The notes under the pieces were generated by a model. It was not told the DNA's origin and did no database searches. It worked only from the letters and a program-made list of their open reading frames with translations. 58,301 bases of DNA, from NCBI GenBank assembly GCA_029233965.1, contig JARGOP010000025.1, positions 1 to 58,301 on the forward strand. Reading direction: 5' to 3'. The position numbers and the translations under genes are program-made. Origin of the DNA: Verrucomicrobiales bacterium. Lineage in GTDB: Bacteria > Verrucomicrobiota > Verrucomicrobiia > Verrucomicrobiales > DEV007. Position 1 is the stretch's first letter, and each line of letters opens with the position of its first letter. Shown one piece after another: positions 12,550 to 31,125 of this stretch.

Positions 12550-15500
12550 ATGAAATACCTCGCCATCATCGTCTTGGTGCTCACCTCTTGTGGTTTCGCA
12601 GGTGCGCAGGAGGATGCGGCCTCCTTTCCAAATTCCAATGGGAAAACATCGGCGAAGGCGGCTGAGAAGACTAACATTATCCTTATTTTTACCGACGATC
12701 AGGGTTACGGGGATCTCGGTTGCTTCGGTTCAAAGACGATTAAGACACCACATCTCGACGGGATGGCGGCGGAGGGGCTGAAGCTCACGAACTTCTATGC
12801 CCAGCCGGTTTGCGGAGTGTCCCGGGCCGCTCTCATGACGGGTTCGTATCCGATCCGGGTCGCGGAACCGAATAACCTCAAGCAGCTCCATACCGTTCCC
12901 CATCCGCAAGAAGTGACGATGGCGGAAGTGCTGAAGTCCGCCGGATATTCCACCGCGATCATCGGGAAGTGGCACCTCACTGACCGCGGCACGGGGCCCG
13001 GCGGTTTCGAACCGGCGACGATGCCGAATGCGCAGGGCTTCGATTATTTCTATGGCACTCCGGTTTTTAATGGATACACCGTTTACGTGGAGGACGTGCC
13101 TCTACGTGTTCCGCTTTTCCGAAACGATGAGATTGTGGTAGAAGGGGTCGAGAGCTGGGACAACATCACCGCCGACTACACGAAGGAGGCGATTGACTAT
13201 ATCGAAGAGAACAGGGACGAGCCCTTCTTTCTCTACCTCGCTCACAATATGCCGCACATTCCCGTCGGAGCGTCGGAGAACTTCAAGGGCAAATCCGAAT
13301 ACGGTCCCTACGGTGACACCATCGAAGAGATCGACTGGTCGACCGGACAGATCCTCGACAAGCTTAAAGAACTCGGAATCGACGACAACACACTCATCGT
13401 CTACACCTCCGACAACGGACCCTGGATCGAAACGACGAGAGGGATGAAGCCGGATGGCGGCGCCTTCATTCCCCGTGAGCATTCCGGCTCGGCCGCACCG
13501 CTCAGGGGTTGGAAAATGTCTGCCTGGGATGGAGGATCGAAGGTTCCCTTCATCGCCCGTTGGCCCGGGAGAATCGCGACGAACCGCGAGAGCGGCGAAA
13601 TTCTCACGACGATGGATCTGCTGCCAACCTTCGCCCGGTTGGCGGGTGCCGCGCTTCCTGCTGATCGCACTCTTGACGGCCATGACGCGACCGCCTTCCT
13701 GCTCGGAAAGACTGACGAGAGTCCCCGCGACGACTACCTCTACTACAGCGGCTGCCTCCTTACAGGGATCCGCGTTGATCAATGGAAACTCGTCCTGCCA
13801 CGTCCGGCGAATCCGCCCGGGACCGGCTGGTGGGGACGCATGATCGAAGAGGTCAAGGAGGTTCAACTCTTCGATCTCTCTGCGGATCCGGGCGAGACCA
13901 CCAACTTGGCGGATCAGCATCCTGAGGTCGTAGCCGGTTTAGAGGAGCGAATCGCGGCGGCGCGAGCCGAGTTGGGCGACATGGATGTGGTGGGTTCTGG
14001 GGCCCGGTTTTTCGATGAGGGGCCCCGTAGAATCGGCGGCGCCAAATCCGGGGCGAAGCCTCCGCTACTCTCCTACGATCAGTTTGAGCCGGTCGGGAAT
14101 CTCCGCTTCAGCTTTGAGTCCGGACAACTCGAAGGCTGGAAAATCATCGAGGGCGGATTCGCCGCCGCCGTGACCACGATGCCTGCACTGCCCCGCCACA
14201 AGGATGCCCCCTTTGCCCGGCACGGCGACCACCATCTCTCGACCCTGACACTGGCTGACGGGAAAAGCGCCTCCGATACGCAGACCGGCGTCCTGCAATC
14301 ACCGGAATTCATCCTCAGGGGGGATCGGCTTGCTTTCCTCGTCTCGGGTGGCTTCGAGGCCGGAAAGCTCTATGTGGGGCTGGTTGATGCCGACTCGGGT
14401 GAGGTATTGATTCAAGAGGGAGGATCAAAAGATCACCGGATGCGACGGGTTATTTGGGATGTCTCGAAGTGGAAGGGGAGGCAGGTGCACCTCCGGGTTG
14501 TGGATGACAAGACGGCTGGCTGGGGGCATCTCAATGTCGACGACGTCTCCGTAGAGGGATCGCTTGTCAATGAGGGAGCCGCCTCCGCGGGGGAGGCAAA
14601 GGCAGCGGTCCAAACGACGCCTAAGAAGCCCAATTTCGTCGTTATCTTCACCGATGACCAGGGCTACGGTGATCTCTCCTGCTTCGGGGGGGATCATGTC
14701 AGCACGCCGCGAATTGATCAAATGGCCGCCGAAGGGATGAGACTAACAAGCTTCTACGTGGCGGCACCTGTCTGCACGCCGTCGCGGGCCGCCCTAATGA
14801 CCGGTTGCTACCCGAAACGGATCGATATGGCGACGGGATCCGACTTTGTGGTGCTTTTGGCGGGTGATAAAAAGGGGCTCAACCCTGAGGAGGTAACCAT
14901 CGCGGAAGTCCTGAAAGGAGCGGGTTATAAAACCGGAATGTTCGGTAAGTGGCACCTTGGCGATCAGCCTGAGTTTCTCCCGACGAGACAGGGCTTTGAT
15001 GAATATTTCGGCATTCCCTACAGCCACGACATTCATCCCTATCATCCTTCCAAAAAGTGGAACTTTCCTCCTCTCGCATTGCTTGATCAAGAGGCCGTTA
15101 TCGAATTGGATCCGGATGCCGATTTCCTCACGACGCGATTTACGGAGCGCGCCGTGCAGTTTATCGAGAAGAGTAAGGACGATCCTTTCTTCCTCTATAT
15201 CCCGCACCCGATTCCTCACAAGCCGCTTCACGTTTCGCCGGAGTTCATGAAGGAGGCGGATCCACAGATCCTGGAGACACTCAAAAACGAAGCGGAGGGG
15301 ACGATCGATTACAGGACGAGAGACAAGCTCTTCCGCGAGGCCATCGCTGAGATCGACTGGTCCGTTGGCCGGATTCTCGACACCTTGAAGGATCAGGGAA
15401 TCGACGGGAATACGCTGGTCATCTTTTTCTCCGATAATGGACCCGCGATCGGAAGTGCCGGACCCTTCCGCGGAAGGAAGGGGAGCACCTACGAGGGGGG

Positions 15501-15990
15501 AATGCGTGAGCCGACCGTGATTCGATGGCCCGGTCAGATCCCGGCGGGAGAGGCGAGTGATCGTCTCATGACGGCGATGGATCTTTTCCCAACCTTCGCC
15601 CGTCTCGCCGGAGCAGAGATTCCTTCTGATCGGACGATCGATGGGAAAGACATCTGGCCGGTGCTCACCGCCGATGCCGCGACGCCCCATGAAGCATTCT
15701 TTTACCACCAGGGTGAGACGCTAGCTGCCGTTCGCTCCGGAAAGTGGAAACTCCACCGGAAGGATGGAAAGCCGGGTGAACTCTACGATCTGCAAGCGGA
15801 TCCCGGGGAGTCCCGAAACGTGATCAGGGAGAACCCCTCCGTCGTGCAGCGACTCTTGCAGCACATGGTCTATTTTGAGAAAGAGATCGCGGAAGACAAT
15901 CGTCCTGCTGCTTTCGTGGAAGACTCGGTGCCACTTTCGCTCGAGGCTGTTGAAGAAGCAACCGCAGCAGGAATCAGGACGGACCGGTAA
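12550..15990 (+). CDS. Two-headed sulfatase: two sulfatase domains joined by a beta-sandwich-like domain
   Basis: This 1146-residue exported protein contains two complete sulfatase domains. The first (about 40-490) has FTDDQGYGD, CGVSR with Cys88, and YTSDNGPW. The second (about 695-1130) has FTDDQGYGD, CTPSR with Cys742, and FFSDNGPA. The first signature has Val where the common motif has Pro or Ala, so its conversion to formylglycine is plausible but not certain. Between them, about residues 520-690, lies a domain of the FESGQLEGW / GWGHLNVDDV type seen as an accessory beta-sandwich in secreted glycan enzymes. The N terminus ends LTSC, which fits a lipobox, though an AGA-QE signal peptidase I site is an alternative. 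Single-domain sulfatases are about 450-550 residues, so this is a true fusion or tandem duplication. It may remove two sulfates from one substrate. Confidence 0.9.
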   Translation: MKYLAIIVLVLTSCGFAGAQEDAASFPNSNGKTSAKAAEKTNIILIFTDDQGYGDLGCFGSKTIKTPHLDGMAAEGLKLTNFYAQPVCGVSRAALMTGSYPIRVAEPNNLKQLHTVPHPQEVTMAEVLKSAGYSTAIIGKWHLTDRGTGPGGFEPATMPNAQGFDYFYGTPVFNGYTVYVEDVPLRVPLFRNDEIVVEGVESWDNITADYTKEAIDYIEENRDEPFFLYLAHNMPHIPVGASENFKGKSEYGPYGDTIEEIDWSTGQILDKLKELGIDDNTLIVYTSDNGPWIETTRGMKPDGGAFIPREHSGSAAPLRGWKMSAWDGGSKVPFIARWPGRIATNRESGEILTTMDLLPTFARLAGAALPADRTLDGHDATAFLLGKTDESPRDDYLYYSGCLLTGIRVDQWKLVLPRPANPPGTGWWGRMIEEVKEVQLFDLSADPGETTNLADQHPEVVAGLEERIAAARAELGDMDVVGSGARFFDEGPRRIGGAKSGAKPPLLSYDQFEPVGNLRFSFESGQLEGWKIIEGGFAAAVTTMPALPRHKDAPFARHGDHHLSTLTLADGKSASDTQTGVLQSPEFILRGDRLAFLVSGGFEAGKLYVGLVDADSGEVLIQEGGSKDHRMRRVIWDVSKWKGRQVHLRVVDDKTAGWGHLNVDDVSVEGSLVNEGAASAGEAKAAVQTTPKKPNFVVIFTDDQGYGDLSCFGGDHVSTPRIDQMAAEGMRLTSFYVAAPVCTPSRAALMTGCYPKRIDMATGSDFVVLLAGDKKGLNPEEVTIAEVLKGAGYKTGMFGKWHLGDQPEFLPTRQGFDEYFGIPYSHDIHPYHPSKKWNFPPLALLDQEAVIELDPDADFLTTRFTERAVQFIEKSKDDPFFLYIPHPIPHKPLHVSPEFMKEADPQILETLKNEAEGTIDYRTRDKLFREAIAEIDWSVGRILDTLKDQGIDGNTLVIFFSDNGPAIGSAGPFRGRKGSTYEGGMREPTVIRWPGQIPAGEASDRLMTAMDLFPTFARLAGAEIPSDRTIDGKDIWPVLTADAATPHEAFFYHQGETLAAVRSGKWKLHRKDGKPGELYDLQADPGESRNVIRENPSVVQRLLQHMVYFEKEIAEDNRPAAFVEDSVPLSLEAVEEATAAGIRTDR

Positions 15991-18780: not shown

Positions 18781-18831
18781 TCAACCCCGCCCCTCCGTCA
18801 CCGCGCATTGCCCCGGGTTGGAGGGGGGCAA
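18781..18831. repeat. 51-bp repeat, left copy (direct repeat of 27096-27146)
   Basis: This block runs from TCAACCCCGCC to GGTTGGAGGGGGGCAA. It matches the block at 27096-27146 at 48 of 51 positions and in the same orientation. Its two ends are partly complementary, so it may fold into a hairpin. The two copies bracket an 8.3-kb segment with the oxygenase, the A-T-TE NRPS and the coupled enzymes. The rest of 18430-18929 holds only the winged-helix relic and no intact gene. Confidence 0.75.
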
Positions 18832-18929: not shown

Positions 18930-19373
18930 TTAGGGTGGATACGGGCTTGCCCCGTAGCTCAGATGGAGCATAGGCCGCAGGCTGAAGCGGAGTCTGAGCT
19001 GCGGGCGCGAACTCCCCAGTGTCATTCCATCGAGGGAACTGTGAGGGCGTTCGGTGTTGTAATCAACTATCCAGGCTTCGATGAGTTCTTTCGCATCGTC
19101 GAGGTCGACGAACCAATGCTTGTTGAGGCATTCGTTCCTCATCGTTCCGTTGAAGCTCTCGACAAAAGCGTTCTGCACCGGCTTGACTGGTTGGATGAAC
19201 TGCAGCTCGACGCAATGCTCGTAGGCCCAGCGATAAAGCACCTTGCTCGTGAACTCGGGGCCATTGTCGGTGAGAAGACGCTTCGGATGGCCTCGCTCTG
19301 CTACGATGCGATCGAGCAAACGACAGACTCGATGCCCGCTCAGCGAACTGTCGACCTCAATGGCCAGGCATTT
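18930..19373 (-). mobile_element. IS3-family transposase (OrfB) remnant, 5' truncated
   Basis: The reading frame from about 19373 down to the stop at 18930 encodes the C-terminal part of an rve-type integrase core: KCLAIEVDSSLSGHRV, then TDNGPEFTS with the second catalytic Asp, then FVESFNGTMRNECLN with the catalytic Glu, and NTERPHSSLDG. The part carrying the first catalytic Asp and all of OrfA are missing. The frame upstream of 19373 is not transposase-like, so a junction lies there, about 75 bases before the oxygenase start. It cannot be an active transposase. It marks past insertion or recombination at the edge of the NRPS segment. Confidence 0.83.
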
Positions 19374-19448
19374 TGACCCTGCCCGCGATTCCCGCTTGCC
19401 AACTCTGCCACGTGCCCTATTTTTGGCGGCTTCAGAACCTGTTGCGCC

Positions 19449-20459
19449 ATGAATGCCGATCTTCTGACTGTCGATACCCTCCACACCGTTCCCGAATCCC
19501 TGGGACGGCGGCTGCACCACAACCACATGGAACTACTGGGCATCAGCGAGACCATGCGACTGGCCCACGCCTACAACCAATTGAGGTTCGGCCGGCAGGA
19601 CGAATGGCGGCGAAAACTGTACCGCGAGGAGTTCGAGAGCCTCCTGGAAGAGAACGGTTCACCCATGGTGCTACCCGTTGAGATGAAGGACGGATGGGCG
19701 CTCGACGACTCGATGAGCCTGCCTCACCTCGACCGAGTGCTCGAGTCTGCCGACCGGATCATCGCCGAGCGGGCCGGCCAGCGCCTGTCGACCGAAGGCG
19801 CCTACCGCAGCTACTTCCAGGACGTCTGGAAAGTGGACAGCGACCCGACCGACTATCCCGCGTTTCTCGACTTTGCCACCTCCAGCGAATTGCTCTCGGT
19901 CGTCGGCCGCTACCTGCAATGCATCCCCGCCCTTTCCACCACTATGCCCTCCGGCATCCGCGTCGTGGAGTCCAACGCCAGGTTTGACGATCAGCCCGAC
20001 TCGCCTCACGACAGCCAGCTTTACCACATCGACTACTATTCGCTGCCGAACGTCTACGTCCTCGTGCTTCTCCAGGACACGACCTTCGAGAACGGCCCCT
20101 GGACCTTCCTTCCGCGGGACATTTCCCAGGAAGCCCGAGAAAAGCTTGGCTACTGGAATCACGGACGAGGCTATCGCCTGAGCGACGAGGAAGTCTACTC
20201 GGTCGTGGACCGGAAGGATGTCATCGAGTTCACCGGGAAACGCGGCAGCGTGCTCTTCATCGAATCCTCGAGCTGCCTGCATTTCGGCAGCCGCAACTCC
20301 GTCAAGCCGCGCTTCCAGCTCATGCTCGGCTACACCGGCGCCTGCCGCACGGACTTCACCGAGACCTTCATGAAGCCCAAGGCCTACCCCATTCAGGAAA
20401 GCGACTCGCGTCTCCGCCAGCTGGTGCTGGACAAGGACAGGCTGCCGCCGCCATCCTGA
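19449..20459 (+). CDS. PhyH-like Fe(II)/2-oxoglutarate-dependent oxygenase, intact copy
   Basis: The 336-residue protein has the double-stranded beta-helix pattern of phytanoyl-CoA-dioxygenase-like enzymes. HID in LYHIDYYSLPNVYV gives the HxD iron ligands, LHFGSRN gives the distal His, and KPRFQLM follows where the 2-oxoglutarate-binding Arg is expected. Enzymes of this kind hydroxylate or halogenate small molecules and are common tailoring enzymes in natural-product clusters. It is convergent with the NRPS operon. Its C terminus closely resembles the truncated oxygenase end at 30423-30566 (GYTGACRTDFTE versus GYTGASRTDFTE), so two clusters of the same kind contributed genes here. I infer it oxidises the NRPS product or a monomer; the substrate is unknown. 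Confidence 0.82.
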   Translation: MNADLLTVDTLHTVPESLGRRLHHNHMELLGISETMRLAHAYNQLRFGRQDEWRRKLYREEFESLLEENGSPMVLPVEMKDGWALDDSMSLPHLDRVLESADRIIAERAGQRLSTEGAYRSYFQDVWKVDSDPTDYPAFLDFATSSELLSVVGRYLQCIPALSTTMPSGIRVVESNARFDDQPDSPHDSQLYHIDYYSLPNVYVLVLLQDTTFENGPWTFLPRDISQEAREKLGYWNHGRGYRLSDEEVYSVVDRKDVIEFTGKRGSVLFIESSSCLHFGSRNSVKPRFQLMLGYTGACRTDFTETFMKPKAYPIQESDSRLRQLVLDKDRLPPPS

Positions 20460-20547
20460 TCCTGCCTCCCTGCCGGGCACACGGCCAGTGCGGCGGGACA
20501 CGGGAGACATTCATCGACCGGACCTCAACGCCGTCCGTCGAAAGAAT

Positions 20548-20976
20548 CAAGCCCCGGGCCACCTCCTCCCACTCTTCGGCCACCATTTCCTCCTCGATAT
20601 CCATCCCGATCTCGCGGCCAACCGCCACAGCCAAGAGCGCCCGCGAGGCATTGCGGGAGAGGCTGAAGCGCAGGTCGATCGGATGGGCTCCGGACGCGAG
20701 CTGGGCTTGCCATCTGGGGAATTCTCGAGTTGAACATCGTCAGGCGAAAAATCGAGGCAGCCCTCCAGCACCCCGCGCAGCCAGGCCCTCGATGCCACGA
20801 AACGCCGGCGGTCCCGGTCGAAGACAAAGGGGACGGCGCGCTCCGACTCGGAGGGCGAAAGCACCACCGCTCCGCCCCGAGAGTCCAAGTTCACAGCTCC
20901 ACAGATGAATCACGCCCGCCCCGGGCGCCGCCGGATCGCCGCCCGCCTCCCCGCGCCACTGGATTTCGAGACTCAC
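20548..20976 (-). pseudogene. Decayed Sfp-type 4'-phosphopantetheinyl transferase
   Basis: The gene starts at GTG 20976, overlapping the NRPS stop (GTGA). The first frame reads GAGVIHLWSCEL. The next shifts by one base near 20890 and gives VVLSPSESERAVPFVF, DRDRRRFVASRAWLRGVLEG and SPDGKP. A second shift near 20715 returns to the first frame with HPIDLRFSLSRNASRALLAV and AVGREIGMDIEE. These are ordered Sfp-type PPTase motifs, including the conserved GxDIE metal site. One base inserted and one deleted explain both shifts. After about 20550 the WxxKEA region is absent, so the 3' end is lost and the frame runs into the convergent oxygenase gene. PPTases add the phosphopantetheine arm to carrier domains, so this was probably the dedicated partner of the NRPS. 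The cell must now use another one. Confidence 0.75.
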
Positions 20977-23501
20977 GGGACGTCCTGTTGTTCGACCTCC
21001 GCCATCAGCGCCTCCAATTCCCGCGCCACCTTGTCCACTGCGGGCGCCACGAGCAATTGCTCACGCTTGCCGGGAACGAGTACCGTTCGCAGCTCCTCGG
21101 CATAGGCCGGTAGCCGCTCGCGATGCCGCTGCCCCATGCGGTCGGGGGTCAGGATGACGGTCAGCCTGCCGGGCAGGCGCTCCATCCGGTAACCGTGGCG
21201 CGAGTGGCAGTTCATGCGGGCCACGAAGTCGCGGTAACTCGTCAGCCAGCGCCGTTTGTGCTTCCGCCGGAGCCTGCGGACGACCGACCAAGCCGCGATC
21301 CGGATCCCGTCGCGAATTTTCGTGATCGTGCGGACCGGACCGTCGTAGAAGCGGCCGGGATGCGGGAGGTAGAAGTCGAAGAGCGCCACCAGGCCGACCG
21401 CTTTTCCCTGCCGGAGGAGTTGCTGCGCCATTTCGAAGGCCACGAAGGCTCCCATCCGCGTGCCGGCCAGCAGGTAGGGCCCGGCTGGATCGCATTGCGT
21501 CACTTCCTTGACATAACGACGGGCGATTTTCCCGATGCCGCGCAGCGGTGCGCGCTCGCCGTCCAGGCCCACGCTCTGCAGACCGTAGACCGGCCGGTCC
21601 TGCAGTCGCTTCGCCAACTGCCCGTAAAGCGCCACGTCCCCCTCCCCGCTGTGCACGAGGAAAAGCGGGCGCCGGCCGCTTTCCGACTTCCGGATCGGCA
21701 CGAGGGGCGATGAAGTGGCCTGTACCGCCTCGCCCGCCACGACGCGGGCGAGGGATTCCAGGGTGCTGTGCTCCACAAGAATCGAGGGCAGCAGAATAAC
21801 GTTGTACCGCTCCTCCATCCGCGAGAGCAGCTGGACCGAGCGGAGCGAATCGCCACCCAGGTCGAAGAAATCGGAATCGCGGCCCACGGCCGGAACGTCG
21901 AGCACTGATTGCCAGATTTCAGCGAGGGAGGTCTCGATGCCTTTCCGCGGCGCGAGCAGGCCCGCCTCGCCGGTATCCGTCGAATCCGGCGACCACCTGG
22001 GAAGGGAGCGCCGGTCCACCTTGCCGCTCCGGGTCAGGGGCAGCTCGTCCAGGAAGACAAACCCAGACGGCAGCAGGTGTCCGGGCATGTGCTGCAAGCC
22101 GCGCCGCAAATCCGCGGCCGATGCCGCTGCGCCGGGCCGTAGCACGACGTAACCGACAAGTTGAGACTCCCCGTTCTCCTTCGCCGAGGCGCCGGCGACC
22201 GACTCCTGCACCGGCCCGAGCGAATTCAGGGCGGACTCCACTTCGCCAAGGTCCACCCGCCGGCCGCGAATCTTGACCACCTGGTCGGCGCGGCCGCCAT
22301 GGAGGAGCGATCCGTCCGGCAGGATTCGGCCGAGGTCCCCGGTCAGGAAACGGTCGGGATCCGGATCGAAGCCCTCGTCGCCCGCCGCCGCCCGGTCCCG
22401 CCAGTACCCCTGCCGCAGGTGCGGGCTGCGCACGGCGATGCGTCCCTCCTCGCCTTCCGGGACCGGCTCACCGCCCTCTTCCAGCAGCTCCAGCTCGATT
22501 CCCTCCACCGGCCGGCCGCAGGACACCGGACCGTCCGGCACCGGGCTCGAGTGGTCGAGGATCGAGGCGCACATCAACCCGGTTTCCGTCGAGCTGAAGG
22601 CGAGCATGAGCCGGCAACTCTCCGGGCAGCGCTCCTGGAAAAGCTTCACGTCCGCCGGATGGATCGCCTCGCCGCCCAGGCGAACGATGCGGAGCGACTC
22701 CAGGCAATGCGCGTCGTCGACGGCCCGCATGAGGTGGCGAAAGAGCGTGGGTACCGAATGGAAAACGCTAACCCCGTGCCTGTGCAGCCAGTCCGGTACC
22801 GGACCGAGGCCCCGCTTGCGGAGGTTGAAGGGACAGAGGGCGGCGCCGTTGAGCAGGGCTGTGAAGAGGGCGCTGGAGGAGGCCCCCAGGTTGAGCGAGG
22901 TCAGCAGGGAAAAGCGATCGGAAGCCCGAACCCCGATCAGGTCGCCGTAGATCTCCGACTGGCGCAGGATGCCGGCGTGATTCTGCCAGACACCCTTCGG
23001 TTTGCCGGTCGAACCGGAGGTGTACACGAGCCAGGCGCCGCAGTCGGGGTCGGGGAACCCGGGAATCTCCGCCGGATCCGACTCCGCTCCGGAAAACTCG
23101 AGGATTCGGCCGCGTTCGCCGCCAAGGGAATGCGCCTGGGCCAGGTGGGCCGCGTCGGCGACCAGATGACCAGCCTGCGCGTCAGCCAGCATCGAAAGTA
23201 GGCGTTCCCTCGACTCGGATGGATCGAGCGCGAGGTAGAGGCGCCCCGCCTTGAGACATCCGAGCACGGAGGCGATCAGCGGCGCGTCATGATCCATGAG
23301 CAGGGCGACCGGCGACGAATCCGCCCTGCCTCCGGCGACGAGCTTTCGCGCCAGGCTGTTCGATCGGCCATCCAGCTCGGCGTAGCTCCACCGGGCCGTG
23401 TCCGAGCTGACGGCGATCCGATCGGCGTGCTGCCTGGCCACCGCGGCGAAACGCGCGGGAATGGAATCGATTGAGTTCCGCTCTTTCACGGTTCCCTTCA
23501 T
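20973..23501 (-). CDS. NRPS protein A-T-TE (adenylation, carrier, thioesterase with Ser replaced by Arg)
   Basis: The 842-residue protein has an adenylation domain (about 15-495) with A3 LVYTSGSTGKPKGV, AFSSTETGL, A7/A8 LTGDLGRI and RADQVVKIRGRRVDLGE, and A10 LTRSGKVDRR. A carrier domain follows with the phosphopantetheine Ser in DLGGDSLRS, then a type I thioesterase (about 605-842). In the A4 region where amino-acid-activating domains have Asp235 (FDxS), the sequence reads LGAS, so an ordinary alpha-amino acid may not be the substrate. In the thioesterase, the GxSxG elbow reads GTRMG with Arg682 at the nucleophile. Start ATG 23501 overlaps the upstream stop (ATGA), and its own stop overlaps the PPTase relic start. 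It should receive the chain from the A-T-C protein. Confidence 0.87.
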   Translation of the reverse strand: MKGTVKERNSIDSIPARFAAVARQHADRIAVSSDTARWSYAELDGRSNSLARKLVAGGRADSSPVALLMDHDAPLIASVLGCLKAGRLYLALDPSESRERLLSMLADAQAGHLVADAAHLAQAHSLGGERGRILEFSGAESDPAEIPGFPDPDCGAWLVYTSGSTGKPKGVWQNHAGILRQSEIYGDLIGVRASDRFSLLTSLNLGASSSALFTALLNGAALCPFNLRKRGLGPVPDWLHRHGVSVFHSVPTLFRHLMRAVDDAHCLESLRIVRLGGEAIHPADVKLFQERCPESCRLMLAFSSTETGLMCASILDHSSPVPDGPVSCGRPVEGIELELLEEGGEPVPEGEEGRIAVRSPHLRQGYWRDRAAAGDEGFDPDPDRFLTGDLGRILPDGSLLHGGRADQVVKIRGRRVDLGEVESALNSLGPVQESVAGASAKENGESQLVGYVVLRPGAAASAADLRRGLQHMPGHLLPSGFVFLDELPLTRSGKVDRRSLPRWSPDSTDTGEAGLLAPRKGIETSLAEIWQSVLDVPAVGRDSDFFDLGGDSLRSVQLLSRMEERYNVILLPSILVEHSTLESLARVVAGEAVQATSSPLVPIRKSESGRRPLFLVHSGEGDVALYGQLAKRLQDRPVYGLQSVGLDGERAPLRGIGKIARRYVKEVTQCDPAGPYLLAGTRMGAFVAFEMAQQLLRQGKAVGLVALFDFYLPHPGRFYDGPVRTITKIRDGIRIAAWSVVRRLRRKHKRRWLTSYRDFVARMNCHSRHGYRMERLPGRLTVILTPDRMGQRHRERLPAYAEELRTVLVPGKREQLLVAPAVDKVARELEALMAEVEQQDVP

Positions 23502-25441
23502 AACCCGTAAACGGCCTGCAGACGGGTATAAAAAAGGCGATCCCCGTCGCCGTGCTCGGGAGGCCCGATGCCGGACAGCTTCCAGCCCCCGAAGGGCATC
23601 GAGGAGTCGACGCCGGTAGTGGAGGAGTTGAACTTGAGAATCCCGGCGCGGGCTTCCCGTAGGAAAACCTGCTTCAGATCCTCGGATCCGCTGAACAACG
23701 CGGCCGCCAGTCCCTGGGCCACGCCATTGCACAACTCCAGGGCGTGATCGAAATCCCGAGCCGCCTGCACGACGAGGAGGGGACTCATCGTTTCTTCCTG
23801 CACCAGCGGATGATCCGGCAAATCGCAGCAGGCGATCACCGGCTGCGCGTAGGCTCCGCCCGTCGCCGCCAATTCGCGGGCCCGGTCCGCCTGCAGACGC
23901 AGGACTCGATGGGCGCCGCCGTCTGCTTCCGCGTTTTCGACCCGGAATTCGTGCTCGTCGCGCCGGCCCGCGTGAATCATCGGCCCGATCTCCGTTTTTT
24001 CATCCAGGGGGTCGCCCCAGGCGATCGATTCCCCCGCTGCGACCAGTTCTTCGAGAAATTTCTCGAGGCATTCCGTCGCCACGACGACCCGGCGGTTCGC
24101 CGTGCAACGCTGACCGGCAAAACCGAAGGCGCCCCAGGCGATCTGCCGGGCGGCCTGCTTGAGATCGGCATCGGTCCAGACGATGGCGGCGTTGTTGCCG
24201 TTCAGCTCGGCCTGGATCGGCCGGACGGACCGGGCGCAGATTTCCTGGATGGCGTAACCCGCGGTGAGGGCGCCGGTCACGGTGACGGCGTCAATGTCCG
24301 GATGACCCGCGAGCGACTGGGCAGTGGAGGAATCGCCCGGCAAAAGGCGGACCGCATCGCGGGGGACACCCGTTCGAGAAAGCAGCTCCAGCGCCGCTTG
24401 CGAGATCGGCCAGGCGGCGGGCGCTGGCTTCCAGACCACGGTGTTTCCGTAGATGAGGGCCGGGGCGATCTTTCCCAGGGCGATCGCCAGCGGGTTGTTC
24501 CAGGGGGAAATGATGGCCACCGTGCCGAGGGGCCGGCTTCGCACGCGGCCCGCCGCCTCGTCACGATCGAGGGGGACGGTAACGGCGCGACGGATCACGT
24601 CCCGGATGTTGCCCGCCGTCCTGCGGACCTCTTCCCGCGCATGGCCGATCGGTTTTCCCAGTTGTTCCGCCATCTGGCGGGCCAGGTCCGGGGCGGCGGC
24701 CTCGAGACCGGACGCCAGCTTCTCCAGCACCTCCCACCGGGCGTTCATCGACGTCTCCCGCCAGTGATGGCCCTCGTTCTTCGCCGCCGCCACCGCGCCT
24801 GCCACCTTTTTGCTTCCGGCAATGGGCATCTCGAACAGCGTCTCTCTAGAGTGCCGGGGCGAGCGATGAACGAGAACCCGCGGCCTCGACGCCGGGTCCC
24901 GGGTCAAGGCCTGTAGCCCCGGCTCGAAAGAGACGCAGCGCGCGGCCAGCCAGCGACGCACGGCCGCCGCATGAACCGGGTCGTAGCTGCCCACCGCGTC
25001 CTCGGCCATGCGGACCTCGTAGCCCCGCTCCAGGCATTCGGTGGCAATGGCGCGCACGCAGGCATGCAAGTGCACGCCGGCGAGGACCACCGTGTCGCCG
25101 CCGCTCTCCCGCAGCGCCCGGTCAAGCTCGCCGTTGGCAAATCCGTTGAAGCCCGTCTTGTCGATGACGGCTTCGCCTTCAACCGGCTGAAGCGGGTGCG
25201 GCGCCGCGTGTCCGGGCGATCCCTCGACGCAGAGCCAGCGATCGGATTTCCGCCAATGCGGCAGTCGCCGATCATCCTCCCGGCGGACCGTGGTTCGCAC
25301 ATGCACGACCGGTAGGCAAACTTTCCGGGCCCGTTTGAGCAAAGTCTCTGCCGCCGCAATTAGGCGGGTCCTTTCTGGCAGAAGTCCATCATTTTGAAGG
25401 AAATCCCATTGAAGATCGATCAGCAACAAGATGGGCTTCAT
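23498..25441 (-). CDS. Fusion of isochorismatase-like cysteine hydrolase and aldehyde dehydrogenase
   Basis: The 647-residue protein has an N-terminal isochorismatase-like domain (about 1-200) with the triad visible: Asp in LLIDLQWDF, Lys in VIDKTGFNGF, Cys in HLHACVRA. The C-terminal domain (about 205-647) is an aldehyde dehydrogenase with SPWNNPLAIALGKIAPAL, AELNGNNAAIV (catalytic Glu region), GFAGQRCTANRR (catalytic Cys) and MPFGGWKLSGIG. The hydrolase class usually removes ammonia or a carbamoyl group from amides. A joined pair could release a product and oxidise a linked aldehyde, but the order of reaction is unknown. Start ATG 25441 overlaps the upstream stop (ATGA), and its own stop overlaps the NRPS start (ATGA). 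Both domains keep their catalytic residues. I do not know this fusion from characterised pathways. Confidence 0.88.
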   Translation of the reverse strand: MKPILLLIDLQWDFLQNDGLLPERTRLIAAAETLLKRARKVCLPVVHVRTTVRREDDRRLPHWRKSDRWLCVEGSPGHAAPHPLQPVEGEAVIDKTGFNGFANGELDRALRESGGDTVVLAGVHLHACVRAIATECLERGYEVRMAEDAVGSYDPVHAAAVRRWLAARCVSFEPGLQALTRDPASRPRVLVHRSPRHSRETLFEMPIAGSKKVAGAVAAAKNEGHHWRETSMNARWEVLEKLASGLEAAAPDLARQMAEQLGKPIGHAREEVRRTAGNIRDVIRRAVTVPLDRDEAAGRVRSRPLGTVAIISPWNNPLAIALGKIAPALIYGNTVVWKPAPAAWPISQAALELLSRTGVPRDAVRLLPGDSSTAQSLAGHPDIDAVTVTGALTAGYAIQEICARSVRPIQAELNGNNAAIVWTDADLKQAARQIAWGAFGFAGQRCTANRRVVVATECLEKFLEELVAAGESIAWGDPLDEKTEIGPMIHAGRRDEHEFRVENAEADGGAHRVLRLQADRARELAATGGAYAQPVIACCDLPDHPLVQEETMSPLLVVQAARDFDHALELCNGVAQGLAAALFSGSEDLKQVFLREARAGILKFNSSTTGVDSSMPFGGWKLSGIGPPEHGDGDRLFYTRLQAVYGL

Positions 25442-26592
25442 CTCTCCGGTTGGACAGCGGCCGCATGTGAAATCTGTTCGACCACCTTCTCGGTCATGGC
25501 TTCCGTGCCGAGAATTACGCAACCTGGCTCGGCGATGTCGGCCGTGCGCCAGCCTTCCGCCCAGGCCCGAAAGAGCGCCTGCTCGACCAGTTCGGCCGCG
25601 TCCGGCTGATTCAGGCTTTCCCGCAGCAGCATGGCCAGCGAAAGTATCTGGCCGCCGGGGTTGGCCGTGCCGGTCCGCGCCAGATCGTGGGCGCAGCCGT
25701 GGTTGGTCTGGTAAACGCCGTGGGCGGCCGGTGTGTAGTTCCCGGAAAAAGTCACCCCCCGCGACGACACAAGCACGCCGGCGGCGTCGGCCAGGATGTC
25801 GCCGATGAGATTCGGCGCCACCATCACATCGAAGCGCCGCGGGTTCTGGATCATCTCATAGGCGGCGAGGTCGACGTTCATCATCTCCGCCTCGACGCAA
25901 AAACGTCGCGCCGTGGCGATTCCGACTTCGCGCCAGAGGGCGGTGATGCCCGGCACGCCCCCTTCTTTGACGATGATGTGGAGGGTGCTCGATCGAGCCG
26001 CCGCGGCCCGGGCCGCCACTTCCACGAGACGGGCAACTTCGGTTTCGTCGTAGCGAAAGCAATGCTCCGCCACGCGGACACCGTCGACCATTTCATCCTT
26101 CCACTGCCCCTGGTAAACGCCGCCGATGTTGTCGCGCACGATCAGCAGGTCCAGTCCGGCCACGTGATCCGCAAGCAGCTTCCCAGCCCGGCCCAGTTCC
26201 GGGTAGGCCACGACTGGCACGAATTTGCAAAAGAGATCGAAATGCCGGCGCAGGTCATAGACATAGCGCCCCCCTCCCGGACCGCTGAGAATGGCGCCCC
26301 CTTCCTCGAAGATGTCCTCGCAGAAACAAGCGACGGCTTCCGTCAGGGGCTGGCCGCATTCCGCCTCCGCCTCTTCACCGATCGCGCCCCCGTGGCGCAG
26401 CTCGAACTTCAACCCGGTCACATCTTCGACCGCCTTGAGAACCTCCAGGGCGGCGCCCACCACGTCGGGACCGATGCCCGTGCCCTTGAGGACTCCGATG
26501 AGTGGGCGGGGCGCCGTTTGGCCGAATTCCGGCAGGAACTTGGTCAGGCGCGTCCCGGGGGTCGGGCCGAAGGGATTTTTATCCTCGATCAT
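25438..26592 (-). CDS. Isocitrate/isopropylmalate dehydrogenase family enzyme
   Basis: The 384-residue protein shows family motifs in order: PLIGVLKGTGIGPDVVGAAL, LRRHFDLFCKFVPVV (substrate arginine region), VRDNIGGVYQG, the catalytic Lys strand IIVKEGGVPGIT, NLIGDILADAAG with the metal-binding Asp residues, and the cofactor loop NHGCAHDLARTGTANPGG. The family oxidises a 2-hydroxy acid and decarboxylates the product (isocitrate, 3-isopropylmalate, tartrate and homologues). The loop between the substrate Arg motifs does not match textbook leuB or icd, so a cluster-specific substrate is likely. It is the first gene of the ATGA-coupled run leading to the A-T-TE NRPS and may make a keto-acid precursor. 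The N terminus is about 30 residues longer than usual, and ATG 26592 has no clear ribosome binding site. Confidence 0.87.
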   Translation of the reverse strand: MIEDKNPFGPTPGTRLTKFLPEFGQTAPRPLIGVLKGTGIGPDVVGAALEVLKAVEDVTGLKFELRHGGAIGEEAEAECGQPLTEAVACFCEDIFEEGGAILSGPGGGRYVYDLRRHFDLFCKFVPVVAYPELGRAGKLLADHVAGLDLLIVRDNIGGVYQGQWKDEMVDGVRVAEHCFRYDETEVARLVEVAARAAAARSSTLHIIVKEGGVPGITALWREVGIATARRFCVEAEMMNVDLAAYEMIQNPRRFDVMVAPNLIGDILADAAGVLVSSRGVTFSGNYTPAAHGVYQTNHGCAHDLARTGTANPGGQILSLAMLLRESLNQPDAAELVEQALFRAWAEGWRTADIAEPGCVILGTEAMTEKVVEQISHAAAVQPER

Positions 26593-26680
26593 AACATTGG
26601 AGAGCGTGGAAGCGGCGCGTTGTATTCGTTTTGGAATTTAAGCGCGTTTTTATCACCAAATAAAGTTCGGTTGAAATTTC

Positions 26681-26800
26681 TCAATCGTTTTTTCCTTTCG
26701 GTCCATCGCCAGGTGAAGGATCTCCCGGCTTCGGCTCGCCGAATCCGAGCAGGAAGAGGCCGCCTTGCAACCCCAAGCGGCCAAAGATATGCGTCTTCAC
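26681..26800 (-). CDS. Possible 39-residue protein coupled to the GNAT relic
   Basis: A GTG at 26800 overlaps the second stop of the GNAT-derived frame (GTGA), in the same style as the other junctions of this operon. The peptide begins VKTHIFGRLGLQGGLFLLG and has a short hydrophobic segment and a Pro/Gly/Asp/Lys-rich tail ending GPKGKND. I recognise no family. It may be a real small protein or a fragment left by rearrangement. The remaining bases 26593-26680 are AT-rich compared with the flanking genes and are the only place for a promoter of the downstream operon. Confidence 0.3.
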   Translation of the reverse strand: MKTHIFGRLGLQGGLFLLGFGEPKPGDPSPGDGPKGKND

Positions 26801-27095
26801 AGGATCAGGGCCATGAGTTGCTCGTCAAAATACCCCTCCCGTCCCGCGCGCGTGAAATACTGCGTGAGGACGCCCTCGCATTAAAAGCTCAGCTTCTCGT
26901 AAAAGGCGATCCCGCGGGGATGATCCGCGGAAACGCCCAGTTCCACCCGCACGACCCCCTCGGCTCGCAGCTCCCCGAGCAGATCCCGCATGAGGCGGGT
27001 CCCCACGCCCCGGCCCTGCTGCTCCGGCGCCACCGCGAGGCCACCCAGGTGAAACGAATGACGGAAGCGATGCGTGCCGCGCCGGATTTGCTTTT
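26797..27095 (-). pseudogene. GNAT acetyltransferase remnant, 5' truncated with an in-frame stop
   Basis: The frame carries the acetyl-CoA-binding core of a GNAT enzyme, HLGGLAVAPEQQGRGVGTRL (motif A with Q/RxxGxG), then VELGVSADHPRGIAFYEKLSF and a TAA at 26881-26883. Read through that TAA, the same frame continues CEGVLTQYFTRAGREGYFDE to a TGA at 26797-26799, which looks like the normal end of such a protein. The 5' half is missing: protein-like sequence starts right after the 51-bp repeat at 27096-27146. It is therefore broken at both the 5' side and by one stop. GNATs transfer acetyl groups to amines and often serve as tailoring or resistance enzymes. Confidence 0.65.
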
Positions 27096-27146
27096 TCAAC
27101 CCCGCCGCTCCGTCACCGGACATTGCCCCGGGTTGGAGGGGGGCAA
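27096..27146. repeat. 51-bp repeat, right copy, with a shorter relative at 27192-27220
   Basis: It differs from the copy at 18781-18831 at three of 51 positions and has the same orientation. About 45 bases further on, a shorter block again contains GCGGGTTGGAGGGGG and may be a deleted third copy. A 15-base string, CTCCCCAGTGTCATT, at 27167-27181 also occurs at 19012-19026 inside the IS3 relic, so both ends of the 8.3-kb segment share more than the repeat. The GNAT relic is cut at this point. Confidence 0.75.
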
Positions 27147-27225
27147 CCCTACCCCGAACTGAGCACCTCCCCAGTGTCATTTATTTGTGGCGCAACACGC
27201 CTAGCGGGTTGGAGGGGGTTCGATG

Positions 27226-30200
27226 TCAGGCCGTTCCTCCCCGTGCGAGAAGTAAAGAGAGACATCGATCAGGTTCGTGCGAAGCGACATCAAGAACCTC
27301 TAGCAAACGGGCAATGAAGTCACGAACTCCTGCCGGATCATAAATCCTCGCATCAAAAGTGGCACGGCAGAATGGCTCTTCATGCTGGAGGTCGAATGAG
27401 AGGCTGAAACCCCATGGCATCCGTTCGCTTGTGCGATCACCCGCTTCAATCTCGAGTCCACCAAAGTGCATCGCGGGCATGTGTCCTGACAGTCCGAAGA
27501 TGATCTGGATATCCGGCGGCACGATATCCCTGCGACGCAATTCATCGCAAAGCTCGTCATAAGGAATCGCCGAGTGAGACTGAGCATCCGCCACCGTTAC
27601 TTTCACGCAGTGAAGCCACTCCTTGAACGTCTGGTCCCGGGAATAACGCAAACGGAGTGGTACCATGTTCAGGAAAAATCCGAACATATCCTGCAGTTCG
27701 AGTCGGTTTCGATTGGTCACGTGCGTCCCGATGATTATCTCATCATGGCCGGATTCGCTTAAAAGCAGTGCAGCGAAAGCGGCGAGCCGGATCATGTAGA
27801 ATGTGGTCCCACTTTCCCGCGCGAGAGATTCCTGTGCATCGGTGATCCCGGCCTCAAGCCCCCAGGACACGACTCCGTCCGCAATGGGCGCATTCGGTTT
27901 CGGAGTAGGTCGCTGGAACGGAAGTTCTAATGGAAGCAAAGGAGGTTGTAGTCTCTTTTCCCACCAGTCCAACTGCTCCTGATAGAGCCGGTTTCCCGGC
28001 TGAAGACAGAGCCGCTGCCAGGTCGCGAAATCCGCGTATTGCAGCGCCGGATTCTCCAATTCCGAAGGACATTCGTTTGCCAGTCGCGCCTCATAAAAAA
28101 AGGCAAGGTCACGGAAGAAGATCACCCACGAAAGTCCGTCGGAAATGATGTTGTGATGCACGCGAAGGAACTGGTGCTGATCCACCCCGATCCGGATCAG
28201 CCAGAATCGTAACAAGGGAGCTTTTCTGAGATCGATGGGTTCGCTCGATTTCTCACGTAACCATTTCATTGCCGCAGATTCGGGATCTGTGTCCCGGGAA
28301 AAATCGATGAGTGGAAGATCGATCCTCCCGGGGGGGTGGATGACTTGCGCCGGTTCACCGTTTAGCTCCTCGAATGTGGTCCTCAAGATTTCATGTCTTC
28401 CAATGACCTGCTCCAGGCTCCACCGAAATACTTCCACATTGAGCGGGCCTGTGACATTTAAACTCGAAGCCTTCACGTAACCGGCGGATGATTCAGGGGT
28501 CGCCGAGTATCGCCAGATTCTTTCCTGCAGGAGTGACAGGGGCAGCGGTTTATCGCGGACCACCGGCATCAATGGGGGCATCTTCGGTTCCCCGAGCTTT
28601 TCAACCAGGGCATCAATTGCCCGTGCGAGTCCGTTGAGTTTGGGATGGTCAATAAACGCCTGAAGGCTCAACTCAACTTGGAATGCAGCGTGAACCTTCG
28701 CGGCAATCACTGACCCCTGCAGGGAGTCTCCTCCAAGGTCGAAAAAGTCAGATGCTCCTCCGATGCCGTCGTGCTCAAGGACTTCGCACCAGATTCCGGC
28801 GAGTGCTTCTTCTGTGGCGGTCCCCAGATCCGTCACGCATGGTGATGGTGAGATCCGGGCGGCACGACTCCGCAGCTTCTCCCGATCAATTTTTCCGTGG
28901 GGGGTAAGCGGCATCCGGTCGACGAACTCGAAGAAAGTCGGAATCATGTGACTCGGAAGCAATGCACGCAAACTGTCCCGTAGCGACTCCGCAGTGCATC
29001 TCCCACCCTCGCGGAGTTCGACGAACGCGACCAGCCGTACCGTCTCATTTTGTGATGTGTATCCCATAACAACCGCCCGATCGACATCGTCTTGAGCTTG
29101 CAAGGTGTCCTCGATCTCGGTCAGTTCGATGCGATATCCACGGACTTTGATTCGTTCGTCGGTTCGCCCGACGAACATGATATGCCCGTTCGTGTCCCTT
29201 CGGCCGATATCGCCGCTGCGGAATATCGTGGCTCCGTCTGACGACTCATCCCGGAGAAAGCGTTGCGCGGTGAGCTCTTCATTGCGCCAATACCCGAGCG
29301 ACAAATGACGGCTTTTTATCGTGATCTCACCGGCTTCTCCGGGCGCAACTTCGTTGCCCGATTCATCAAGCAGCATCACCTCGACTCCGTGAGCGGGGAG
29401 GCCCACGGGGAGGGGTCCCTCGGAAACGGTATCTTTACAGGTCAGGTGGAGTTGACAGATGTTGCCGGTCTCGGATGAAGATAGCGTAGGCGCAAGAATA
29501 CACGTGGCACTGAAGTGCTCGCGGAAACACGCAAAATCTGAAGACGTAGCCGACTCTGAGCCTAGTCTCACCAAACGCACCTCAGGGAATTGCACTTTTG
29601 AATCCAGCGTCCGCATGAAATGCCTGAAAAGCGATGCGGACGAACTGTAATAGGTGATTCTGTTTCGCAGCATCCAGTCGGCGAGTCCGGTGACCCCGAT
29701 TTCGACCACTGGGAATGGGCAGAGCGCGGCCCCGTTGAGAAGCGCAGACCATGTTGTCATCATTCCCTGGCCTCCGCTCGGCGAGGCTAACAGCGCGACT
29801 CTATCATTTGCAGAAAATCCGAGTCCAATCGTAAGCCGTTCCACCTGATGGATCACGTCGCTATGGGTTCGCATCACTCCCTTCGGTCGGCCGGTGGAGC
29901 CTGAGGTATACACGAGAAAGGCCACCGAATCCGGTGATACTTCAATTTCCGCGCCTTCCATGGAGATCCCGGAATTCTCGTTCTCAAAAAGGAGAACTTC
30001 CTGGTTTACGCCTGCGATCCTTTCGGCAAGTTCCCTGTTGGGAAAGTCGGTAATAATTAAACTTGGTTCCGCGTCGGCGAGCACTTGCTCAAGCCTTGCG
30101 GGGGGATCGGATCGGTTCAGCACGACCACTATTCTGCCTGCCTTGAGCACCGCAAGCATGGTAGCCACGAGGGGCGCATCATGGGCCATCAAAAGGCAAA

Positions 30201-30426
30201 CCCGATCACCAACGCTGCCTCTGTGCGATCGGATGGAGTCTGCGAGACCATCGGCTCGTTCCTTCAGCTCAGAGTAGGTTGGTTCCCAGCGGGAGGCAAT
30301 GATCGCCAACTTTGACGGCTGCAGGCTCATCCGCTCGTCGAAGCGACTATGGATCGTAAGACCCGGTTCCGGAGCGGCGGGCGCGGTCGCTAAAGAAGCG
30401 GAGATGCCATGGTCACCTGCCATCAT
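27226..30426 (-). CDS. NRPS protein A-T-C (adenylation, carrier, condensation)
   Basis: The 1066-residue protein has an adenylation domain (about 25-520) with A3 LVYTSGSTGRPKGVM, SSSETGN, RSGDIGRR, the A8 segment TDERIKVRGYRIELTEIE and A10 LTPHGKIDREK. A carrier domain follows (DFFDLGGDSLQGS), then a C-terminal condensation domain (about 640-1060) with the active-site motif HHNIISDG intact. The region where amino-acid-activating domains carry Asp235 reads PSGGQG, so the Asp is absent here as in the A-T-TE protein. With no N-terminal C domain and a C domain at the end, it fits an initiating protein that hands its unit to the A-T-TE protein. Codon and base use is lower in G+C than in that partner. 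ATG 30426 overlaps the stop of an oxygenase relic (ATGA); a second ATG follows directly. Confidence 0.88.
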   Translation of the reverse strand: MMAGDHGISASLATAPAAPEPGLTIHSRFDERMSLQPSKLAIIASRWEPTYSELKERADGLADSIRSHRGSVGDRVCLLMAHDAPLVATMLAVLKAGRIVVVLNRSDPPARLEQVLADAEPSLIITDFPNRELAERIAGVNQEVLLFENENSGISMEGAEIEVSPDSVAFLVYTSGSTGRPKGVMRTHSDVIHQVERLTIGLGFSANDRVALLASPSGGQGMMTTWSALLNGAALCPFPVVEIGVTGLADWMLRNRITYYSSSASLFRHFMRTLDSKVQFPEVRLVRLGSESATSSDFACFREHFSATCILAPTLSSSETGNICQLHLTCKDTVSEGPLPVGLPAHGVEVMLLDESGNEVAPGEAGEITIKSRHLSLGYWRNEELTAQRFLRDESSDGATIFRSGDIGRRDTNGHIMFVGRTDERIKVRGYRIELTEIEDTLQAQDDVDRAVVMGYTSQNETVRLVAFVELREGGRCTAESLRDSLRALLPSHMIPTFFEFVDRMPLTPHGKIDREKLRSRAARISPSPCVTDLGTATEEALAGIWCEVLEHDGIGGASDFFDLGGDSLQGSVIAAKVHAAFQVELSLQAFIDHPKLNGLARAIDALVEKLGEPKMPPLMPVVRDKPLPLSLLQERIWRYSATPESSAGYVKASSLNVTGPLNVEVFRWSLEQVIGRHEILRTTFEELNGEPAQVIHPPGRIDLPLIDFSRDTDPESAAMKWLREKSSEPIDLRKAPLLRFWLIRIGVDQHQFLRVHHNIISDGLSWVIFFRDLAFFYEARLANECPSELENPALQYADFATWQRLCLQPGNRLYQEQLDWWEKRLQPPLLPLELPFQRPTPKPNAPIADGVVSWGLEAGITDAQESLARESGTTFYMIRLAAFAALLLSESGHDEIIIGTHVTNRNRLELQDMFGFFLNMVPLRLRYSRDQTFKEWLHCVKVTVADAQSHSAIPYDELCDELRRRDIVPPDIQIIFGLSGHMPAMHFGGLEIEAGDRTSERMPWGFSLSFDLQHEEPFCRATFDARIYDPAGVRDFIARLLEVLDVASHEPDRCLSLLLARGGTA

Positions 30427-30566
30427 CCGATCATGTTTTTGTCCATAACCATCTTTCTGAGACGGGAAACACTTTCCCGGACGGGATACTCATTTTGCGG
30501 CATGAACACCTCCGTGAAATCAGTGCGGCTTGCGCCTGTGTAGCCATACATGAGCTGGAATCTAGG
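30423..30566 (-). pseudogene. 3' end of a second PhyH-like oxygenase gene, coupled to the A-T-C NRPS
   Basis: Reading down from about 30566, the frame gives PRFQLMYGYTGASRTDFTE, then VFMPQNEYPVRES and RLRKMVMDKNMIG, ending in TGA at 30423-30425. This parallels the C terminus of the intact oxygenase at 19449-20459, including KPRFQLM, GYTGACRTDFTE and SRLRQLVLDKD. About 47 codons remain and everything upstream is replaced by transposase-remnant sequence. The stop overlaps the NRPS start (ATGA). It shows that the A-T-C NRPS originally sat downstream of its own oxygenase in one operon. The fragment has no iron-binding motif and cannot be functional. Confidence 0.8.
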
Positions 30567-30840
30567 AGACTGTCGGTGTTAGCGCAAGCGGATCAGGCGA
30601 GATCCCGGATGAGCGAGTCATGTGAGGACGGATGGCTCGGCTGAGTCGAGCGACAACGGCGCGCATTGAGGCTGCTGATGCGTTCTGATCGCACCCGAGA
30701 GGTGAATCAGGTTTCGATGGGCCGGATTTCGGACCGGAAAACAGCTTGTGCAGCCGCTTGAGATTGTAGGTCAGGCACACCAGTGTCCATTCGCCCGAGG
30801 CGGGACGTGCCCCGGCCGGGATGTCAAAAGGAGCCTGAGG
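30562..30840 (-). mobile_element. C-terminal remnant of an IS1182/IS5-like DDE transposase
   Basis: On the minus strand the frame reads GARPASGEWTLVCLTYNLKR followed by LHKLFSGP and runs to a stop at 30562-30564. The GEWxLVCLTYNLKRLHKL ending is typical of the C terminus of IS1182-like (IS4/IS5 superfamily) transposases. No catalytic residues are present. The fragment directly abuts the truncated oxygenase end and probably reports the event that removed the oxygenase's 5' part. The upstream limit near 30840 is approximate. Confidence 0.6.
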
Positions 30841-30984
30841 AGGTTCATGCGGTGGTGACAGATGATCTTGTCCTCGCGCTCGATGCGACGGAATGGCTGC
30901 AGGATGGTGCGGCGCAGTTTTTGCTGGTGAGTGAACCGGCTCCTTTTGCCTTGGTCGTCATCGAAACGGGGCGGCCGCGAAAGT

Positions 30985-31125
30985 GGGCGGACGGGGTCAC
31001 GTCATTGGAGATCGCGGGAGCTTGGAGTGCAATGGCATCCCGAGAAAATGATGCCCGGCAATGCGATGCAGGCGAAACTCCTGAAGGCGTTTGTGGAGGC
31101 GGCGCGAAAAGAATTGCATTTTTGA
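30985..31125 (+). pseudogene. Remnant of a class I glutamine amidotransferase-like (peptidase C26) gene
   Basis: The frame ending at 31125 encodes [20 protein letters not shown] then [15 protein letters not shown], the C-terminal signature of PuuD-like gamma-glutamyl hydrolases with the catalytic His and Glu in HPE. The preceding residues [14 protein letters not shown] lie in another frame, which in this family directly precedes the VQWHPE strand, so a frameshift separates them near 31040. The 5' part with the catalytic Cys is gone. It is the right-hand debris of the island, just before the DUF2851 gene. The remainder of 30427-31149 is covered by the oxygenase and transposase relics. Confidence 0.55.

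Follow-up and report, generated by a model that had tools for sequence, protein, structure and literature searches.

Organization of the Locus

The 58,301-nucleotide stretch of Verrucomicrobiales DNA analyzed here (the window) encodes two nonribosomal peptide synthetase (NRPS) proteins, A-T-C and A-T-TE, on one strand and next to three metabolic genes. The question raised by this arrangement is whether the five genes work as a single biosynthetic system, in which the two NRPS proteins act in series, or whether the apparent assembly line has been put together from parts of different origin. An initial interpretation made from the letters alone (the sequence-only reading) took the former view. 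The five open frames and the domains that it assigned to them were supported by Pfam, or in the case of the PhyH-like protein by a sub-threshold score together with motif residues, and are as follows.

19449..20459, plus strand: PhyH-like putative Fe/2-oxoglutarate oxygenase, 336 aa (relatives and motif residues; PF05721 sub-threshold)
20973..23501, minus strand: A-T-TE NRPS-like protein, 842 aa (Pfam, alignments, codons)
23498..25441, minus strand: fusion of a cysteine hydrolase (isochorismatase fold) and an aldehyde dehydrogenase (ALDH) (Pfam, alignment of 10 relatives)
25438..26592, minus strand: LeuB-like NAD-type β-decarboxylating dehydrogenase with a divergent substrate site (PF00180, 214.7 bits)
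27226..30426, minus strand: A-T-C NRPS protein, 1066 aa (Pfam well above cut-off; GC 0.557)

The window coordinates reveal ATGA start/stop overlaps at two junctions, where the LeuB-like stop meets the fusion start and where the fusion stop meets the A-T-TE start. Inspection of alignments and codons showed that the catalytic residues of the A, T, C, hydrolase, ALDH and dehydrogenase units of the window proteins are intact. No described pathway matched this enzyme set in a literature search of limited scope, in which MIBiG was not included, in agreement with the initial impression that the combination was unfamiliar. A PHROGs search returned no match.

The gene content of the window also includes planctomycete-type cytochromes and sulfatases, a single 1146-aa protein with two sulfatase domains (12550-15990) and an LpxC-FabA/FabZ-like fusion (37317-38627). 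Elsewhere in the same genome, a second NRPS locus contains a Condensation domain (G000:C59:76172-77536) within an open frame of ∼4016 aa.

Recurrence of the Core Genes in Other Genomes

A lack of co-occurrence of the genes in any other genome had been set beforehand as an outcome that would refute the sequence-only reading. This outcome did not arise: the core recurs in nine other genomes. When PhyH and fusion/ALDH profiles were run separately over a 388-genome sample of the phylum, both matched the same 3 genomes. A full-length relative of the fusion protein in G061 led to a neighborhood with the order LeuB-fusion-PhyH-A-T-TE, and a profile of the LeuB-like protein added G472, G469 and G582 within the order and G811, G753, G715 and G672 within the class.

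The LeuB-like and ALDH genes are adjacent in all ten loci, comprising the window and nine other genomes of the phylum. A-T-TE adjoins this pair in seven of them (the window, G061, G147, G811, G753, G715 and G672), the G753 gene being cut by the contig end, and the hydrolase is fused to the ALDH in eight, being absent from G147 and G582. The contig of G469 stops inside the fusion gene. The conserved core has the order LeuB-like, hydrolase-ALDH fusion, A-T-TE, which was observed in 5 genomes.

Several features of individual copies were also recorded. The G811 copy (L054:610-3401) lies near genes for an integron-type integrase and a LinB-like nucleotidyltransferase, and the G672 LeuB-like gene (L057:11796-12032) is apparently frameshifted near its 5′ end. 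A class III aminotransferase near the G061 copy was considered as a cluster member and set aside, since it is present in that one copy only.

Plasmid searches returned only single ALDHs with the fusion protein as query and ordinary LeuB-level matches (35-38%) with the LeuB-like protein. The cluster is small, apparently undescribed and recurs in a few Verrucomicrobiota-like genomes; it is rare and probably mobile.

LeuB-like Dehydrogenase, Hydrolase-ALDH Fusion and PhyH-like Protein

The LeuB-like protein has a fold in common, by sequence, with 3-isopropylmalate dehydrogenase (LeuB), is likewise of the NAD type and keeps the NAD-binding and catalytic Lys/Asp residues (K209, D241, D265, D269, H298 and D303). 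It differs in the substrate site: alignment of the ten members revealed that in every one the substrate loop is shorter by ∼14 residues and the conserved substrate-binding Arg of the LRP motif is gone, with an invariant Lys two residues before the position of this Arg. A separate housekeeping LeuB is encoded elsewhere in the same genome, and the LeuB-like protein belongs to a distinct subfamily. The altered site suggests that the substrate is probably not plain 3-isopropylmalate, and loss of the Arg could mean that the protein no longer acts on malate-type acids. In the LeuB-like tree, the window protein groups with those of G811 and G672 (99/98), which belong to other families of the class than the window genome, and not with those of G061 and G472 from the same order. 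Such a grouping is as would be expected from horizontal transfer.

In the fused hydrolase members aligned, the D-K-C triad of cysteine hydrolases is present, and alignment of 10 relatives showed the ALDH Cys and Glu of the fusion to be intact. Matches of the hydrolase in the PDB were N-carbamoylsarcosine amidase-like proteins or cysteine hydrolases (best 3eef, E 1.8e-18); these share the triad, and the cluster protein differs from them by its fusion to an ALDH. True isochorismatases are not known to carry the Cys of this triad.

The PhyH-like protein has the HxD...H...R motif of PhyH-family oxygenases but scores below the Pfam cut-off, as seen in four of five relatives (PF05721, E 0.0058-0.032). 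The residues that correspond to the iron triad and the 2-oxoglutarate-binding Arg (H193-x-D195, H278 and R288) are invariant in the five full-length members. Searches of the PDB by sequence, with the single protein and with a profile, found no relative, and an AlphaFold model built from three sequences was too poor (pLDDT 34) to be read for the double-stranded β-helix fold of the family.

Relatives of the window PhyH-like protein, with 63-71% identity, occur in G061, G582 and two metagenome-assembled genomes (MAGs) of Bryobacterales. The gene lies within the cluster locus in four cases, namely the window, G061, G582 and G147; in G147, it is shortened and the HxD motif is lost. In this last gene (L030:15269-15823), an in-frame internal loss removes the motif, either naturally or through an assembly error. 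The PhyH profile matched in six of the nine other cluster genomes; in G472, G715 and G469, the relative is more distant and lies away from the cluster. In G715, a second relative was noted beside an AMP-forming ligase (L093:9224-11649), far from the cluster. Taken with the window, the protein was found in 7 of 10 cluster genomes versus 0 of 385 sampled genomes without an ALDH match (Fisher p 4e-13, a guide only, since the two groups of genomes were gathered by different routes).

A wider contig scan with the PhyH-like protein, using two narrow peptide patterns, gave only the two Bryobacterales MAGs, with no NRPS within 10 kb. These relatives (63-66%), the nearest outside the phylum, adjoin an O-antigen-type exporter, and the PhyH-like protein is thus not tied to NRPS genes everywhere. 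At L024:7221-10963, the relative adjoins a nucleotide-sugar epimerase as well as the O-antigen-type ABC exporter.

Substrate Class of the A Domains and State of the TE Domains

Alignment with ordinary A domains showed that position 235 (GrsA numbering) is Gly or Ala, not Asp, in all eight cluster A domains, and that their motif A5 reads SSTE, SSSE, GMTE or GATE and never GPTE; both marks of a canonical amino-acid NRPS module are therefore lacking. The controls included terminal modules of larger NRPSs that had been retrieved in a plasmid search with A-T-TE, and nearly all ordinary controls have FD together with GPTE or a close variant. Two L062 control domains lack Asp235 and join the cluster domains in the tree, where the eight plus these two form a clade (100/100) apart from the ordinary ones. 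Within this clade, the A-T-TE domain of the window pairs with that of G811 (100/98) and the A-T-C domain with that of G672 (91/83).

A review describes position 235 as Gly or Ala in A domains for α-hydroxy acids and notes that StsA, an α-keto-acid A domain, has neither Asp235 nor the motif proline; restoration of the proline abolished activity (PMC11253843). The same review, which lists one α-keto-acid structure and one engineered α-hydroxy-acid structure, records loss of Asp235 in aryl-acid and some Phe-activating A domains also (PMC11253843). The absence of both Asp235 and the GPTE proline from eight A domains suggests that an α-keto or α-hydroxy acid is more likely to be the substrate than an amino acid, with aryl acids as further candidates. 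Together with the LeuB-like evidence, this would fit the original idea of a keto or hydroxy acid supplied by a decarboxylating dehydrogenase; a dipeptide, also proposed at that stage, is not supported by A domains that have lost the amine-binding Asp.

A-T-TE has no C domain, as shown by Pfam for the window protein and by alignment for its relatives, which is an NRPS-like architecture. Although the T-domain serine of the window protein is intact, alignment and codons show that its TE domain has Arg at the nucleophile position (GTRMG) and has had the triad His replaced (PGKREQ), so that an active Ser/Cys-His-Asp site is absent from the window copy. The TE domains of other copies vary: those of G147 and G715 have Ser and His and look intact, that of G061 has Cys and His, and those of G811 and G672 have Cys at the nucleophile position (TCMG) and no His.

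Relationship of A-T-C to the Core

A rival interpretation is that A-T-C and A-T-TE act in series and constitute a complete two-module line, in which building blocks supplied by the neighboring enzymes are linked to give a dipeptide or ester conjugate, with release by the TE domain. Both genes lie on the same strand, the A, T and C motifs of their products are intact (for A-T-C, codons confirm the C-domain HHxxxDG and the T-domain serine), their A domains fall in one clade, and a C domain that follows A1-T1 and precedes a free-standing A-T has the normal geometry for hand-over. Against this, A-T-C is present in only one of the ten loci, that of the window. The nine other copies lack it, and no stand-alone homologue turned up in 377 other genomes, whose best matches to it are segments of large NRPSs or A-T portions. 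Its GC content is 0.557, compared with 0.65-0.68 for the three core genes (PhyH has 0.616 and the surroundings about 0.58), and it is separated from the LeuB-like gene by 630 bp of debris, in which a dispersed repeat is represented by one copy alongside what is left of an acetyltransferase gene. Given also that the TE domain of the window has lost its nucleophile and His and that the A domains have no Asp235, such a line is unlikely, and the complete two-unit assembly described in the sequence-only reading was not supported.

The mutual relationship of the two window A domains suggests instead that A-T-C was probably derived from a sister cluster. The five genes are not a single five-gene system, and we lean toward regarding the window copy as a core that has been joined to the A-T-C gene and a truncated PhyH gene of a related cluster and has partly decayed.

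Decay and Mobile-element Traces

The following remnants, several of which had gone unnoticed in the sequence-only reading (the truncated second PhyH gene, the frameshifted phosphopantetheinyl transferase, the GNAT remnant and the transposase remnants on the flanks), were detected within and around the five genes.

18781..18831, minus strand: copy of a dispersed ∼70-bp repeat, left flank (DNA search of own genome)
18930..19526, minus strand: remnant of an rve/IS3-type transposase integrase core, overlapping the PhyH gene start (rve_3, 97.8 bits)
20490..20945 (approx.), minus strand: decayed phosphopantetheinyl transferase (PPTase), N-terminal part (PF22624, 31.4 bits; three-frame translation)
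26881..27180, minus strand: GNAT acetyltransferase remnant (PF00583, 50.9 bits, profile 57-116)
27095..27165, minus strand: second copy of the dispersed repeat, in the debris that separates A-T-C from the core (DNA search of own genome)
30426..30572, minus strand: 3′ end of a second PhyH-like gene, coding for its 49 C-terminal residues (profile E 6.4e-16; translation)
30573..31120, minus strand: probable remnant of a transposase (WTLVCLTYNLKRLHKLF), by which the second PhyH gene is truncated (three-frame translation)

The PPTase piece lies downstream of A-T-TE, contains two apparent frameshifts and has lost its C-terminal part; the GNAT remnant is missing its 5′ part and has an in-frame stop ahead of the C terminus. 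The second PhyH fragment is 61% identical to the intact PhyH-like protein, and its stop overlaps the A-T-C start. Next to this fragment, the remnant at 30573..31120 (WTLVCLTYNLKRLHKLF) presumably belongs to a transposase family, and IS/transposase remnants occur on both flanks of the region. The dispersed repeat has at least 8 copies in the genome.

Taken with the dead TE domain and the high-GC core in a background of 0.58, this assemblage is what would be left by a horizontally acquired cluster that is nonfunctional here and makes nothing, whatever its relatives make. Such an extreme outcome is quite unlikely, however, because the five long frames are open, the catalytic residues of the A, T, C, hydrolase, ALDH and LeuB-like units are intact, and T-domain loading could be carried out by two other PPTase-family matches elsewhere in the genome. 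A more limited loss is suggested by the mosaic itself: with the core joined to a foreign A-T-C and a truncated PhyH gene and partly decayed, the window copy may have lost the ability to form the ancestral product.

Proposed Pathway

Gene order of the core, residue changes, GC mosaic and remnants were observed directly; for the substrates and product of the cluster, we infer the following route. The LeuB-like enzyme would oxidize and decarboxylate a 3-substituted malate-type acid to an α-keto acid with NAD+. The fusion protein would trim the precursor, with hydrolysis of an amide-like bond and oxidation of an aldehyde to an acid. As judged from the lost Asp235 and GPTE proline, the A domain of A-T-TE would adenylate the resulting non-amino acid and load it onto its own T domain, and the TE domain, with Ser or Cys in relatives, might release the acid, conceivably by dimerization or lactonization. 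The PhyH-like protein, on the basis of its co-occurrence, would hydroxylate the acid or the product.

The interpretation that we cautiously prefer is an NRPS-like cluster, rare and probably mobile, by which an α-keto or α-hydroxy acid, and not a peptide, is made and activated. More tentatively, the cluster might define a novel NRPS-like pathway class, with a LeuB-derived dehydrogenase and a hydrolase-ALDH fusion that furnish an unusual keto or hydroxy acid for conversion to a small metabolite by a stand-alone A-T-TE; in that event, the TE domains would be partly of the Cys type or dead, and the helper PhyH could be encoded elsewhere in the genome.

It is very unlikely that the genes are merely metabolic neighbors of no joint function, a catabolic LeuB-like/ALDH pair next to NRPS debris. 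The G472 locus, in which the LeuB-like gene and the fusion gene stand alone with no ligase nearby, is of the kind that would be expected in that case, but 5 genomes share the LeuB-fusion-A-T-TE order, the starts overlap in the window copy, and 7 of 10 loci have A-T-TE near the pair.

If the preferred interpretation is correct, the cluster is a compact, patchily distributed biosynthetic unit for a phylum with few characterized pathways, in which a leucine-pathway enzyme has been remodeled for specialized metabolism, and its natural A domains and its TE variants with Ser, Cys or neither could serve studies of keto- and hydroxy-acid activation. The two-protein line of the window is itself a mosaic that an annotation pipeline or a reader could mistake for one pathway.

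Comparison with Known Systems

The belactosin and cystargolide clusters also combine leucine-pathway-like chemistry with AMP-forming enzymes, CysG, CysF and CysE acting on isopropylmalic acid (PMC11427300), and a methyltransferase is found in some copies of the present cluster: in G672, it lies ahead of the A domain in the same frame as A-T-TE, and in G582, a separate methyltransferase and a PaaK-like ligase take the place of A-T-TE. The present cluster differs in that no isopropylmalate-synthase gene was noticed and in its LeuB-type dehydrogenase and hydrolase-ALDH fusion. A comparable β-lactone route, in which activation of a 3-substituted malate by an AMP-forming enzyme precedes cyclization, with an obafluorin-like Cys-type TE, is a weaker rival and highly improbable: Cys is at the TE nucleophile position in G811, G672 and G061, and the ObiF TE forms its β-lactone via Cys (PMC6668435), but ObiF needs a His that the G811 and G672 domains lack, and LeuB-type decarboxylation would destroy the malate from which the lactone is made.

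The closest working model, by analogy, is provided by the fungal quinone and furanone synthetases and the ascocorynin enzyme AcyN, which likewise are A-T-TE proteins without a C domain that use non-amino-acid substrates, condensing α-keto acids and dimerizing aryl-keto acids (PMC9047271). These non-reducing NRPS-like enzymes use aromatic α-keto acids, whereas an α-keto acid in the present cluster is expected from motifs. The cluster further differs from the fungal systems in its neighboring genes, which encode a LeuB-like enzyme, a hydrolase-ALDH fusion and a PhyH-like protein, and in its TE domains, several of which have Cys or no nucleophile.
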